NCBI GenBank assembly: GCA_015767405.1
Contig: JADWMG010000011.1
Span: 1 to 39,905 of the forward strand
Source of the DNA: Actinomycetota bacterium
Lineage (GTDB): Bacteria; Actinomycetota; Acidimicrobiia; Acidimicrobiales; Ilumatobacteraceae
Length of the DNA: 39,905 bases
Direction of reading: 5' to 3'
The translations under genes and the position numbers were made by a program. Positions 11,578 to 29,217 of this stretch are shown here, one piece after another (the stretch's first letter is position 1; every line of letters begins with the position of its first letter). The notes beneath the pieces are model-generated. The model searched no databases. It saw only the letters and a list, made by a program, of their open reading frames with translations, and was not told the DNA's origin.

Positions 11578-11632
11578 CCCGAAGCTCTGAACGCGTCGGC
11601 GTTGTTCGACCTTCAGAAGGAGAAGAGCACTC

Positions 11633-11890
11633 ATGTCAAAGACTAAAGGTGGCGGGTCAACCCGCAACGGTCGCGATTCCAATGCCCAGCGCCTCGGCGT
11701 GAAGGTGTTCGGAGGCACGGAGATCACCGCCGGAACGATTCTGGTTCGCCAACGCGGCACCAAGTTCCACCCAGGCAAGAACGTCCGCAAGGGCAAGGAC
11801 GACACCCTGTTCAGCCTCGTCGACGGATCGGTTCAGTTTGGTCAGAGCAAGGGTCGTAAGACGATCAGCGTGCTCGCAGTCGAGGCCTGA
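11633..11890 (+). CDS. rpmA: 50S ribosomal protein L27
   Basis: [28 protein letters not shown]...[15 protein letters not shown]. Confidence 0.97.
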
Positions 11891-11913
11891 CAGCCCACAA
11901 CAACATCTGAAAA

Positions 11914-11949
11914 CGAAAATGGCCGGACCTGAGGGCCCGGCCATTTTCG
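11914..11949. terminator. Terminator hairpin after rpmA
   Basis: CGAAAATGGCCGG / CCGGCCATTTTCG, perfect 13-bp inverted repeat with 10-nt loop. Confidence 0.75.
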
Positions 11950-11983
11950 CGCCCCGCCCTCAGATCCCTCAGCCCGACGCAGG

Positions 11984-12030
11984 TTTGTGTCAGCAGATAC
12001 CGGTGATGTGCACGTATGCGCTGACACAAA
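11984..12030. repeat. 47-nt palindromic repeat, copy 1 (diverged centre)
   Basis: TTTGTGTCAGCAGATACCGGTGATGTGCACGTATGCGCTGACACAAA. Confidence 0.85.
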
Positions 12031-12044
12031 ATCCTTGAGCGAGA

Positions 12045-12091
12045 TTTGTGTCAGCACAAACCGGTGGCGCACCGATAGGTGCTGACACAAA
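12045..12091. repeat. 47-nt palindromic repeat, copy 2
   Basis: TTTGTGTCAGCACAAACCGGTGGCGCACCGATAGGTGCTGACACAAA. Confidence 0.9.
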
Positions 12092-12130
12092 ACTGGGGTG
12101 GGCTGGGGAAGCCCTCTGCCAGGAGTGCTG

Positions 12131-13924
12131 TCAGGAGGCGTTGAGGTTGGCTTCGAGGGTGTCGACAGCGGCATTCAGCGCGTCGGGCAGCTTGTCGCCG
12201 TACACCGCAAAGTGCTCGCGGATCTGGGGGATCGCAGCTTTCCACCCGTCGATGTCGACCGACAGGAGCGTGTCGAGATCGGCTTCGTCGATCTCGAGCC
12301 CGTCGGCGTCGAGGCTGCCCTTCGTGGGCAACTTGCCGATCGGGGTATCGATCGTTTCGCCGTCGCCGTCGACCCTCTCGAATACCCACTTGAGCACCCT
12401 GCTGTTCTCGCCGAATCCGGGCCACAGGAAGCGGCCGTCTTCGTCACGCTGGAACCAGTTGACGAAGAAAATCTTCGGGAGCTTCTCAGGATCTGTCTTG
12501 CCTTCCATCGAGAGCCAATGGGCGAAGTAGTCCGCGTAGTTGTAGCCGCAGAACGGCAGCATCGCCATCGGATCGAAACGCAGGTTGCCGACAGCGCCCT
12601 GCTGGGCCGCCGTGGTCTCCGAAGCCATGATCGAGCCGAGGAACACGCCGTGCTCCCAATCGTTCGCTTCGGTGACGAGTGGCACTGTTGTCCGGCGCCT
12701 GCCACCGAACAAGATCGCTGAAATCGGCACGCCAGCCGGATCTTCCCACTCGGGAGCAATCGACGGGCACTGAGACGCAGGTGCAGTGAATCGGGCGTTC
12801 GGATGGGCGGCAGGGGTCTCAACGTCTGGAGTCCAAGCGTTGCCCTTCCAGTCGGTTGCCCGGGCCGGCGGAGTATCAGACATGCCCTCCCACCACACAT
12901 CGCCGTCGTCGGTGAGCGCCGTGTTGGTGTAAATGCAGTTGCCCCACAGGGTCTTCATCGCGTTGGCGTTGGTGTCGTCACCGGTGCCCGGCGCAACGCC
13001 GAAGAATCCGGCTTCGGGGTTGATCGCCCACAGGCGGCCATCGTCACCGAACTTCATCCAACAGATGTCGTCACCGACTGTCTCGGCTGTCCACCCGGGG
13101 ATTGTGGGTACGAGCATGGCCAGATTGGTCTTGCCACATGCGGAGGGGAATGCTGCGGCGATGTACTTGAACTCGCCCTCAGGATTTGTGAGCTTGAGGA
13201 TCAACATGTGCTCGGCGAGCCAGCCGTTGTCGCGCGCCATCACCGAAGCGATACGCAGTGCGAAGCACTTCTTGCCGAGCAAAGCATTGCCGCCGTAGCC
13301 GGATCCGTATGACCAGATCTCGCGCGTGTCGGGGAAGTGCACGATGTACTTGTTCTCGGCGTCACAGGGCCACGGAACGTCAGGCTCACCATTGAGTGGG
13401 GCGCCGACCGAGTGCAGGCATGGAACCCAATCGTTGTCGCCGAGCACGTCGAGGGTGGCCTGCCCCATACGGGTCATGATGCGCATCGAGGCGGCGACGT
13501 AGGCAGAGTCTGTGAGCTGAACACCGATATGCGCGATCGGTGAACCGAGCGGACCCATCGAAAATGGCACGACATACATCGTGCGGCCCTTCATGCAGCC
13601 GGTATAGAGCTTGATCATGTCGGCGCGCATCTCGCTGGGCTCGCGCCAATTGTTGTTGGGGCCGGCTTCTTCTTCGGTGGCCGCGCAGATGAAGGTGCGA
13701 TCTTCGACGCGAGCAACGTCGCCCGGGTCAGAATGCGCCCAATAGCTGTTTGGCCTCTTGGCGTCGTCGAGTTTCGTGAAGGTGCCTGAGTCAACGAGTT
13801 CTTGGGCGAGACGTTCGTACTCGTCCTCACTCCCGTCGCACCAGTAGATGTCTGCCGGCTGCATGACTGCTGCCCATTCGACAACCCAGTCTTTCAGACG
13901 TTGGTTGGTAGTGGTTCCGCTCAT
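12131..13924 (-). CDS. pckG: Phosphoenolpyruvate carboxykinase (GTP)
   Basis: 597 aa; [14 protein letters not shown]-loop-like motif, [20 protein letters not shown]. Confidence 0.96.
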
Positions 13925-24522: not shown

Positions 24523-27500
24523 GTGTTTCTGAAAAGTCTCACCCTCAAGGGGTTCAAGTCGTTTGCCGACAGCACAACGCTCGTTCTCGAGCCCGGGGTG
24601 ACTGTCGTTGTCGGACCAAACGGATCGGGCAAATCGAACGTCGTCGACGCTGTTGCATGGGTGCTCGGAGCCCAGGCACCGAAGGCCGTGCGTAGTCAGA
24701 AGATGGACGACGTAATCTTTGCTGTTTCGGTCGGGTGACTCGGAGTACGCAATCAACGGTGTGGCATGTCGTCTGCTCGACGTACAAGAGCTTCTTTCAG
24801 ATGCTGGGGTCGGGCGCCAGCAGCATGTGATCGTCAGCCAGGGGCAAATTGATGCCGTGCTGAACGCTCGACCAGAAGAGCGCAGGGCGATCATTGAAGA
24901 AGCTGCGGGCGTTCTGAAGTTCCGCAAGCGTAAGGAGAAGGCGGAGCGTCGCCTCGATGCGACCGAGGCGAACCTCCTCCGGGTGCAGGATCTACTGCGC
25001 GAAGTCCGTCGCCAGTTGCGACCGCTCGATCGGCAAGCGAAAGCTGCTGAACGCCACGGAGCATTGATCGAAGAGCTGAGCGAGGTGAAGACCTTCGTAG
25101 CCGGTCGTGAGATCTCAACATGGAGAACGAAGCTGGAGGCGCTTGCGGTCACGAGGATCGAGAGTGCCTCGGCTGAGGCCGAACTGAAGACCGCGCTGGC
25201 CTCACTGGACACGCAGGTGATGTCGATCGAGGCGCAACTGTCTGCACGCGGTGAGAGCGACGTGAGCGACCGTTTGGTGCATGTCGAGCAATTACGCGAG
25301 CGCGCCAGGGGGCTGGCAGCGGTGCTGACCGAGAGGCGTCGGTCTCTGGAACGCGACAGGGGGCAACTCCTCGACGCCGGTGTGATCGCCAATCTCGAGG
25401 CAGACGCCGCGCGATTCAGCCAAGAACTCGTCGATGTTTCGAGTGAACTAGCCGAAATCGAACCCTCGGCACAGGAACTCAAGTCCGACGAACAGTCCTT
25501 CTTCGCCGAGCGGAACAATGTGTTGGAGGCGGTTGATTCCGACCAGTCGAGTGCCAAGGCGGCAAGTGCCGCGGCCGAAGTGCGCGGCGAATTGCGTTCG
25601 GTGAAATCGACGCGCGAGCGAGCACAGGCCGAGCTGCTCCGATTCATCGCGAGGAACGAATCGCTGCTTGAGAAGCTGGCCACCTGCGCCGCGGACGCGG
25701 TCCGTTTCAGGGCTGACTGCGAAGAAGCTGGTTCCGTTGAGGAACCATTGGTCAACGAAGTTGCGGCCTCCGAGCACACACATCTCGAAGCGATCGCCAG
25801 CCTGGAGGTCCGTCGAACTCGCCGGAACGAGGCCGCCGAGGAGGCTTCGCGCTGGTCGGCGCGAGTAGAAGCGCTGCAGATGGCGCTCGACGCCGCCCGC
25901 GCCCGGGCCGGCGCCGAACGTCTCGCCGGAGTCGACGGAGTACTCGGAACTCTGCTCGACCTCATTGAGATCGACGACGGATGGGCCCCGGCGGTCGAGG
26001 CCGCTCTCGGCGAGTCGCTAACAGCGGTTGTCGTCGATGACCCATCGGCTGGACGACGTGCATTGGAGGCGCTCCGCAGTTCCGCGACCAGCGGAGCTGT
26101 GATTGCGCTGGGCGTCTCGCCATCGCTGCCGCTCACCACGATCGATGGTGACAGCGTGCGGCCGCACACTCGGTCGACGCGACCGGGGGTCGAAGTGCTC
26201 CTCGATGGGCTTCTCGGAACGGCCGTTCGGATCGACGACGTCGGCGATGCAGTCGATGCTGCTCTGCTTCACCCAGAGGCGGTTGTTGTCACCGGTGATG
26301 GCGACCGGTTCGGGTTGAGCGGCTGGCGTGTCGGTTCTGCCGGGAGCGGGGCGACGGCGGCCGCGCTCGACGATGCGATCGAGCAGTCGGAGACTGCTAC
26401 CGCTGATCTGAACCAAGCCACCGACTCAGTAGTTGCCGGCGAGGCAGAGGTAGAGGCTGCTAGCACCCTCGAACAAGAGCTCACTCGTAAACTCGACGCT
26501 AACGATGCCCGATTCACGGCAGCTTCCGAGGGCTTGGCTCGAACGCAGGGTGAGCAGCGTGAACTACGCACGGAGATCGAGACACTTGATCGGTCGATCG
26601 TGGATTCAGAGTCCAATATCGGGCGTGAAGACCAACGGATCAACGAGCTCGAGGCCCTGCTTCCGGCCCTCGAATCTGATGAGCAGGCCGAGTTCGACGC
26701 CGCGAAGGCCCGCGGCGAACTGCGTGCTGAGCTGGAAGCCAGAGCGGCTCAGCTTTCGTCGCGACGCAAGGATCTTGAAGTTCGCGGTGCCGGATTGCAT
26801 GAGCGCCAGCAACTGTTGGAGCGACGACTGGAAGAAACAGAGAAACGGCTCGCGGCTGATGCCGATGCTCGTGTCGCGGCCGAGGGGCAACGCGTCCAGA
26901 TCGAGTCGCAAATCGGGGCGATCGACCGGCTTACCGAGTTCGTAGCTACGCATCGCGGCGTCGTGGAGACGCTTCACATGGAGTTGGTCGAGCAGCGCCG
27001 CCGACAGAGCGATGAGGTCCGCGGGCTCACCAGCGAACTTGATCAGCTACGTCGATCGCGCAGCGACAAAGAGCAAACGCTCGAAGTGTCGCGAGAGCGG
27101 TCACGGCAAGCCGAACTCGGAGAGGCCGAGGCCAAACTTCGCCTCGAAACCGCGATCGAGACTCTCCGACGCGACCTCGACATCGAGCCTGCAGTTGCTG
27201 AAGCTGCTCCGATGCCTGAGATGCCCGAAGGTGCGACTCCTGCTGGGCGGGTGCGTGAACTCGAGCGAGAGCTCAGGTTGCTCGGCCCGATCAACCCACT
27301 CGCGCTCGAGGAATTCAACGAACTCCAGACCCGCCACAAATTCCTCGAAGAGCAGCTCGAAGATGTGCGCACAACGCGTCGAGACCTGGCGCGGGTAATT
27401 GCTGCGGTAGATGCCGAGATCCAAAACGTCTTCGCGACGGCCTTCTCAGATGTGAGTGAGAACTTCACACTGCTGTTTGGCCTGCTGTTCCCAGGGGGCG

Positions 27501-27889
27501 TCGGCAAGCTGCAGCTCACGACTCCCGACGACATGTTGAACACCGGAATCGAGATCGAGGCGAAACCGAGCGGTAAGAACGTCAAAAAGCTTTCGCTGCT
27601 CTCCGGTGGGGAACGCAGCCTGACAGCTCTCGCCTACCTGTTCGCCGTATTCCGCTCGCGGCCGTCGCCGTTCTATGTGATGGACGAAGTCGAGGCTGCC
27701 CTCGATGACGTCAACCTCCACCGGTTCCTCGGGCTGATAGCGGAGTTCCGCAAAGATGCGCAGTTGATCGTCGTATCGCACCAGAAGCGCACCATGGAGG
27801 CTGGTGACTGCCTGCTTGGCGTCAGCATGCAGCCAGGCGGCTCCAGCAAAGTGGTCACCGAACGCATCACCTCGGCAACCACGGCCTGA
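24523..27889 (+). pseudogene. smc: Chromosome segregation protein SMC, disrupted by an internal deletion/frameshift near 24720
   Basis: 24523-24738 encodes [15 protein letters not shown]...[13 protein letters not shown]...MDDVIFA then hits TGA; 24719-27889 resumes at [36 protein letters not shown]... in another frame. The usual intervening ~35-40 residues are missing. Confidence 0.85.
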
Positions 27890-27922: not shown

Positions 27923-27932
27923 TTTGTGTCAG
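27923..27932. repeat. Isolated half-arm of the 47-nt repeat
   Basis: TTTGTGTCAG without matching right arm, 23 nt before copy 3. Confidence 0.4.
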
Positions 27933-27945
27933 ATCACCCGCAGAG

Positions 27946-27992
27946 TTTGTGTCAGCAGAAATCGGTGGCGCACCGGTAAGTGCTGACACAAA
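27946..27992. repeat. 47-nt palindromic repeat, copy 3
   Basis: TTTGTGTCAGCAGAAATCGGTGGCGCACCGGTAAGTGCTGACACAAA. Confidence 0.9.
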
Positions 27993-28016
27993 TCCGGGAG
28001 TTGGCGATCCCCGAAG

Positions 28017-28063
28017 TTTGTGTCAGCAGAAACCGGTGGCGCACCGGTAAGTGCTGACACGAA
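28017..28063. repeat. 47-nt palindromic repeat, copy 4
   Basis: TTTGTGTCAGCAGAAACCGGTGGCGCACCGGTAAGTGCTGACACGAA. Confidence 0.9.
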
Positions 28064-28107: not shown

Positions 28108-29217
28108 ATGGGTATTGAAATTGTATTTCTGATCCTGGCCGTCCTTGTTGTCGTCTTCGGTATCGGCGTTGTTGTTGTCAGCCGGCGCAACCAGGCGAAG
28201 TCAGCAGCAGCCGCGAGGCGACCCGACGCACCGGCAGCACCGCCCCCCAGGGTCACCGCGGTCGAAGAGTCCGACACGCTCGTCGAGGAAGTTGTCGAGC
28301 CGGAAGCTCCGGCGTCACTTCGTGATCGATTGGCCAAGGCTCGCTCGACTTTTACAGGAGCATTTGTCGGGATCCTCGGCCGGGGAGACATCACCGGAGA
28401 GACATTCGACGAACTGGAGGAGGCGCTTCTCAGGGCCGACGTCGGAATCGGGGTGACGACTGAGTTGCTGGACGGATTGCGCGCGAAGCTCGAGGCGAAA
28501 GAGATCGCCGACCCGACCGAATTGCTGGTGGCCCTGCGAGATGAGATGAACGCCCGCCTTGCTGGGGCCGATCGTTCCCTGACCTTTGAGCCTGGTGCGG
28601 CCGATAGCCCGAACGTCTGGATGTTCGTCGGAGTCAACGGCGTGGGCAAGACCACCACAATCGGCAAGCTTGCGAACCAACAGATCATGGATGGCCGGTC
28701 GGTGCTCTTGGCCGCTGGCGACACGTTCCGCGCCGCCGCGGCCGAGCAGCTCACCACGTGGGCCGAACGATCGGGAGCGGAGATCGTTCGGGGAGCTGAA
28801 GGTGGAGACCCGAGTGCGGTGATATACGACGGCGTCGAACGCGCTGCTGCACGTGACATCGATTTGGTCATGGCGGATACGGCGGGGCGCCTTCACACGA
28901 AGTCGAATCTGATGGAAGAGCTGCGCAAGGTTCGCCGAGTTGCCGAGAAAGGCGCAGGCCGTGTGACGGAGACGCTGCTTGTGATCGATGCCACAACGGG
29001 CCAGAACGGTCTGATTCAAGCACGTGAATTCAGTGAGGCGACCAACGTCACCGGTGTCGTTCTCACAAAGCTTGATGGTTCGGCTAAGGGCGGCATCGTG
29101 TTCGCGATCGAAACCGAACTCGGGATCCCGATCAAGCTGGTCGGTCTCGGTGAAACGATCGACGACCTCACGCCGTTTGATCCCGAAGAATTCGTTTCCG
29201 CCCTCTTCGATCTGTAA
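28108..29217 (+). CDS. ftsY: Signal recognition particle receptor FtsY
   Basis: N-terminal TM, GVNGVGKTTTIGKLA, DTAGRLHTKSNLMEEL, TKLDGSAKGG, GLGETIDDLTPFDPEEF. Confidence 0.96.
   Translation: MGIEIVFLILAVLVVVFGIGVVVVSRRNQAKSAAAARRPDAPAAPPPRVTAVEESDTLVEEVVEPEAPASLRDRLAKARSTFTGAFVGILGRGDITGETFDELEEALLRADVGIGVTTELLDGLRAKLEAKEIADPTELLVALRDEMNARLAGADRSLTFEPGAADSPNVWMFVGVNGVGKTTTIGKLANQQIMDGRSVLLAAGDTFRAAAAEQLTTWAERSGAEIVRGAEGGDPSAVIYDGVERAAARDIDLVMADTAGRLHTKSNLMEELRKVRRVAEKGAGRVTETLLVIDATTGQNGLIQAREFSEATNVTGVVLTKLDGSAKGGIVFAIETELGIPIKLVGLGETIDDLTPFDPEEFVSALFDL

Follow-up and report, generated by a model that had tools for sequence, protein, structure and literature searches.

What are the 47-nt palindromes that occur in two pairs on a 39,905-nt stretch of DNA (contig JADWMG010000011.1, referred to here as the window) from an actinomycetote of the family Ilumatobacteraceae, and what could have spread them? 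Many short palindromic repeats of bacteria have no known enzyme, which has been stated explicitly for the CGTC class (PMC3733652). Here we describe a nuclease gene family that is associated with the palindromes and consider whether it could account for their spread.

Four palindromic elements in the window

We found that the four copies described in a first-pass annotation of the window are all present and are each exactly 47 nt long (Table 1). Two of them match the full arm pattern exactly, while a shuffled window gave no matches, and all four fold into hairpins with DNA folding parameters (z -4.2 to -6.8). The annotation had laid out each unit as outer 12-nt arms, a 3x3 internal loop and an inner 7-bp stem. 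The 47-nt unit and its outer arms held up while the inner stem did not, since its pairing is perfect in just two copies, those near 28,000, and it shows no covariation across the copies of the source genome. Because a pairing signal is absent in either direction, we do not refer to the inner stem as conserved. The first pair was correctly placed between rpmA and the 3′ end of the convergent pckG; the order at this site is rpmA, a GC-rich hairpin, copies 1 and 2, and pckG.

Table 1. Positions of the palindromic elements, their neighbouring genes and the partner nuclease gene
Feature	Sequence	Positions	Strand	Remarks
rpmA, ribosomal protein L27	window	11633..11890	+	Pfam Ribosomal_L27; upstream of copies 1-2
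47-nt palindromic element, copy 1	window	11984..12030	+	centre divergent
Linker between copies 1 and 2, 14 nt	window	12031..12044	none	pitch 61
47-nt palindromic element, copy 2	window	12045..12091	+	exact arms
pckG, GTP-dependent PEP carboxykinase (PEPCK)	window	12131..13924	-	convergent; stop 39 nt from copy 2
smc, chromosome segregation ATPase	window	24719..27889	+	upstream of copies 3-4; stop 56 nt from copy 3; start codon putative
Degenerate half-site TTTGTGTCAGAT	window	27923..27934	+	
47-nt palindromic element, copy 3	window	27946..27992	+	exact arms
Linker between copies 3 and 4, 24 nt	window	27993..28016	none	pitch 71
47-nt palindromic element, copy 4	window	28017..28063	+	
ftsY, SRP receptor GTPase	window	28108..29217	+	downstream of copies 3-4
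Nuclease gene, 306 aa	contig C50, locus L062	1336..2256		bracketed by two 47-mer pairs

The elements are dispersed at the 3′ ends of genes

Genome-wide statistics for the source genome (G000; 3.35 Mb in 438 contigs, 89.5% complete) were drawn from searches and selected stretches. The arm pattern occurs there in 25 exact copies and in 73 copies with three or fewer mismatches, while a reversed-pattern control gave 0, and a covariance model derived from 34 copies recovers at least 74 places, a number that is itself a floor. The elements are therefore far from limited to the four copies in the window, and the outcome named in the first-pass annotation as refuting its reading (no further copies and none in relatives) clearly does not apply. 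At least 73 copies fall into 41 sites with flanks unrelated to one another, and 30 of these sites contain pairs (27) or triples (3) while the remaining 11 contain single copies. A scan of named genomes with the exact pattern matched a single Ilumatobacteraceae MAG, and other genera of the family contain palindromes of the same 47-nt length whose arms have other sequences and are complementary to each other.

Gene context was called with a home-made codon-usage gene finder. Among 35 classifiable sites, 15 lie between convergent genes, 17 between tandem genes and 3 between divergent genes; a further 3 sites lie within called genes (at least one being an apparent miscall) and 2 at contig edges. 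Most elements start 20-60 nt past a stop codon, and nearly all copies are intergenic. An open reading frame that runs through the repeat raised the possibility that the palindrome is encoded within proteins, as in Rickettsia elements, which we dropped because of this intergenic placement.

A predicted AbiEi-Vsr nuclease gene lies between element groups

Comparison of gene neighbours across eight genomes revealed one orthologous gene positioned between element groups in the source genome, in G014 (complete, and from a different genus), in G159 and in G170. The encoded protein consists of an AbiEi-type winged-helix DNA-binding domain (approximately residues 1-170) followed by a Vsr/EDxHD-type PD-(D/E)XK domain (approximately residues 200-302). 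The N-terminal half was identified as AbiEi by PADLOC (E 9e-20), and the C-terminal part matched DUF559 at E <= 0.01 in 26 of 34 homologues, although members taken singly fall below the Pfam cut-offs. An AlphaFold2 model of the protein (pLDDT 89.5) was matched by Foldseek to the AbiEi antitoxin 6y8q (E 3.4e-6) and to Rv2827c of M. tuberculosis, while the nuclease domain was matched to the catalytic domain of I-Bth0305I (E 3.5e-4, TM 0.76). In 34 homologues, with identity as low as 30%, E206, D238, E249 and G252 are invariant and H256 and D265 are nearly invariant. We found no relatives of the nuclease in plasmids or viral contigs.

The AbiEi domain and the Vsr-type nuclease fold are both already known. 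The protein resembles AbiE type IV toxin-antitoxin systems in the fold of its N-terminal domain and in its profile match to the AbiEi antitoxin; it differs from them in its C-terminal nuclease domain. At the source-genome locus no AbiEii-like neighbour was recognised, the neighbouring genes appearing oxygenase-like and methylmalonyl-CoA-mutase-like when their translations were read by eye. A sub-threshold Rfam match to a CRISPR repeat was also seen at this locus.

The fold of the catalytic domain and the E/D/H/D residues are shared with EDxHD/Vsr-fold homing endonucleases such as I-Bth0305I. The gene could thus be a homing-type selfish gene that cleaves the palindromes and is copied in by double-strand-break repair, with the dispersed palindromes being empty or relic targets. 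We consider this quite unlikely even though a homing endonuclease is the closest fold to the nuclease domain and the site brackets the gene on both sides, since about 73 copies of the site face one close copy of the gene in the source genome and homing alone leaves the spread of short palindromes unexplained. The nuclease also differs from the I-Bth0305I type in being fused to AbiEi, in lying outside an intron or intein and in having on both sides palindromes that occur dispersed in many copies.

Nuclease homologues and palindromes are paired across relatives

We found that a palindrome arm recurs on the opposite side of the gene (a match of at least 12/14) at 37 of 47 homologue loci compared to 2 of 61 control genes, a difference whose Fisher p = 3e-17 overstates independence because the loci were not chosen at random and several genomes are closely related. 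The 47 loci combine the best-scoring matches with a hand-picked set, several from close relatives, and the control genes were taken from loci retrieved for unrelated purposes. Among members of the order or class that lie outside the family, 9 of 13 loci showed the same recurrence (p = 3e-7); in the rest of the phylum the association is weaker (11 of 48). The G044 locus was missed by this method as a contig end cuts its upstream palindrome. Homologues at E <= 1e-20 are present in 48 of 201 genomes of the family, and a homologue is present in 121 of 397 sampled Actinomycetota genomes.

The arms are private to one nuclease copy or to close relatives, and G170 contains two nuclease copies and two arm types. 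Genome-wide dispersal was counted in G000, G001, G002, G014, G148, G159 and G170; for most other homologues the counts cover the flanking copies only. Some genomes contain elements without a close nuclease, namely G035, G148 and G001 (73% complete), the best homologue in G001 being 34% identical and accompanied by other palindromes. Draft assemblies or relic elements may account for this. G001 belongs to the same genus as the source genome. The two have two element sites in common, so a large number of the copies may be ancient and static.

Another congener, G002, lacks the TTTGTG family and has in its place an unrelated palindrome, AAATTCGGAGC-N25-GCTCCGAATTT, in at least 54 copies (e.g., L156-L170). 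The length of 47 given for this palindrome was set by the search window, and its arms extend outward. One nuclease homologue of G002 lies 47 nt from a AAATTCGG element, and this pairing is only suggestive because the 3′ flank of the gene falls at an assembly gap. One palindrome copy of G002 lies downstream of rpmA. The occurrence of unrelated families at one site was considered as proof of a site-bound function and was not used, as only this rpmA site stood out.

Spacing and internal loop of the palindromes

The start-to-start pitch of neighbouring elements in the source genome is 61-62 in 11 of 32 intervals and 71-72 in 17 of 32, with linkers of approximately 14 or 25 nt that are not conserved in sequence. 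Genera with other arms show the same values, G014 having pitches of 61-62 and 72 and G170, G148 and G159 a pitch of about 61, and a pitch of 61, 62 or 70-72 accounts for 35 of 46 intervals in the flanks of nuclease homologues, where the two sides of one locus mostly agree. The two pitch values differ by about one helical turn. Neighbours within a cluster have the same orientation in 27 of 32 cases.

The earlier observation that the outer arms are almost invariant and the centre variable extends to the whole source genome, in which the 12-nt arms are nearly constant while positions 13-15 and 33-35 vary, the same few triplets being used in both halves. We compared the frequency of a fully complementary 3x3 loop with that expected if the halves were freely combined. 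Only 1 of 72 source-genome copies has such a loop against 10.4 expected (p = 5e-5 with orientation kept), and at the same positions in G014, whose arms are TTTGTGTGACCG, it was found in 0 of 28 copies against 6.8 expected (p = 4e-4). These data provide evidence that a perfect hairpin at the 3x3 loop is disfavoured by selection or by a strong mutational bias. The unpaired loop is not universal, since G002 has several elements that form perfect hairpins. Both the loop and the pitch statistics take the copies to be independent, while some copies share descent.

AbiEi antitoxins are DNA-binding regulators, and both the strong AbiEi match of the N-terminal half and a helically phased pitch, as expected for proteins bound to one face of the DNA, would suit a regulator or a protein that organises the chromosome. 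Its operators would then be the flanking palindromes, and the dispersed copies would be a regulon or structural sites, with nothing mobile now. Several observations make this reading unlikely: the copies lie 3′ of genes, with only 3 of 35 sites divergent; palindromes are present also 3′ of the nuclease gene itself; the active-site residues of the nuclease are retained; and a loop selected to stay unpaired is relevant mainly if a strand folds.

The same 3′ placement, with 15 of 35 sites convergent, raises the question of whether the elements act in RNA, as bidirectional terminators or as hairpins that stabilise mRNA 3′ ends and are under selection at gene ends. Whatever the gene orientation, the 5′ flanks are rich in C and the 3′ flanks rich in G (in G000, G002 and G014; e.g., L062, L070 and L156), a pattern that is compatible with such a role and that is not accounted for by pairing between the two flanks of a site. 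Copies at tandem sites also show an orientation bias relative to the gene (25 versus 9 copies, paired copies being non-independent). We nevertheless regard an RNA-level role as very unlikely, as the elements have no U-tract, there are 0 terminator-like sites at 11600-12400 around the first pair, Rfam has no match in the window, the inner stem does not covary, and the bracketing of one nuclease family with copy-specific arms would be left unexplained.

Comparison with REP elements and RAYT transposases

The first-pass annotation likened the elements to REP/BIME or miniature mobile elements of a family that it did not recognise. Copy number, 3′ placement, pairing and the mismatched hairpin bore out this likeness, while a Y1 partner did not. 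The single Y1 gene of the source genome, which is RAYT-like (L021 on contig C4, 1003-1902, minus strand), is flanked by a different palindrome, GGGGTCAGACCCC, and the arms of the host 47-mer are absent from all 12 Y1 loci examined in carrier genomes. In several carrier genomes no Y1 gene was detected. The GGGGTCAGACCCC motif also adjoins a 47-mer pair at C138 (L070).

Of 71 copies, 1 has a GTAG tag close to an end and 3 have CGTC there. The element ends in G000, G002 and G014 showed no excess of 2-9 nt repeats indicative of target-site duplication, which would be expected of a MITE or other IS-derived element. Given these data, the reading in which ordinary REP/BIME elements are moved by a RAYT (Y1, HUH) transposase, which has in its favour the general appearance of the elements and the presence of one Y1 gene in the source genome, is hardly tenable, and we hold it to be refuted by the present data. 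We also considered whether elements insert at the tip of a hairpin that is already present, which was unsupported (flank complementarity versus shuffled flank pairs, p = 0.04, 0.46 and 0.93 in three genomes).

Our comparison with RAYT and REP systems is based on two studies (PMC3733652, PMC8266576). As in REP/BIME/REPIN systems with RAYT (TnpA_REP), the elements described here are dispersed, intergenic, imperfect palindromes that are often paired and located 3′ of genes, and a dedicated single-gene enzyme is bracketed by the same palindromes, which are specific to the enzyme copy. E. coli REPs contain a conserved stem mismatch (PMC8266576), and a hairpin with a conserved mismatch, as in group 2 REPs, is found in G000 and G014 but not in G002. 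Unlike RAYT, the enzyme here is an AbiEi and Vsr-like PD-(D/E)XK protein and not an HUH protein, and the unit is 47-60 nt long compared to 20-40 nt in REPs. Since an HUH transposase and the GTAG tag are absent, we do not class the system as a member of REP/RAYT despite the similar layout. CGTC-tagged REPs and other untagged palindromes have no known transposase (PMC3733652); the elements here likewise lack a RAYT partner, but they are longer, CGTC is rare among them and a partner gene was identified.

A proposed role for the nuclease

Our data demonstrate the architecture, a pairing of nuclease and palindrome with copy-specific arms, the copy number of the palindromes, an internal loop selected to stay unpaired and a quantised pitch. 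From these we infer binding, cleavage, mobility and insertion geometry, and we think it probable that the 47-mers are REP-like, likely non-autonomous palindromes that are recognised and spread by a cognate AbiEi-Vsr nuclease encoded elsewhere in the genome. The nuclease would recognise the invariant outer arms, with the unpaired internal loop flagging the folded hairpin as substrate. It may then nick or cut at the element, and a new copy would be laid down near the 3′ ends of genes, often 61 or 72 bp from an existing copy. No mobility or insertion event was observed among the sequences compared. Also weighing against this proposal are the lack of target-site duplications, the element-bearing genomes without a close nuclease, the weaker flank association outside the order, the perfect hairpins of G002 and the two sites common to the source genome and G001.

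These data suggest that the 47-mers are one of many actinobacterial repeat families, each tied to its own predicted nuclease gene, which would constitute an unrecognised route of small-repeat spread. A broader proposal, to which we give about an even chance, is that mobile palindromes of this kind form a novel class of system that is widespread among Actinomycetota. In it, a fused AbiEi-Vsr nuclease with no relationship to HUH transposases would recognise the palindrome in its folded form and copy it around the genome at distances in phase with the DNA helix. The two partners would co-diversify into many private pairs, so that the whole set of dispersed repeats may be exchanged from one congener to the next.

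Our searches of the open-access literature turned up no earlier account of a nuclease and a palindrome paired in this way. Since neither the palindrome nor the enzyme has recognisable homology to REP/RAYT, we count the system as apparently new in kind; the resemblance is one of layout only. Position, sequence-specific pairing and shared geometry all link the repeats to a nuclease family outside the HUH group, and if the enzyme moves the repeats, the problem that RAYTs solve would have been solved a second time and independently. The origin of palindromes without RAYT becomes testable, and ready-made nuclease-target pairs may be on offer for the study of how DNA specificity evolves.

Divergent and clustered copies at individual loci

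Two stretches, L082 (2479-3322) and L086 (1-844), are paralogous or allelic loci with one element pair each. The pairs have approximately 12 differences inside the 47-mers, mainly in the loops and centre, while they hardly differ in the linker and the near flanks. At L077 (contig C284 of the source genome), short tandem units TTTGTGTCAGCAATGA, possibly degenerate half-elements, lie just 5′ of a full element. In G038, eleven palindromes with GTGTCGCGA arms surround a distant nuclease homologue (L260), with spacings of approximately 61, 72 and 100.
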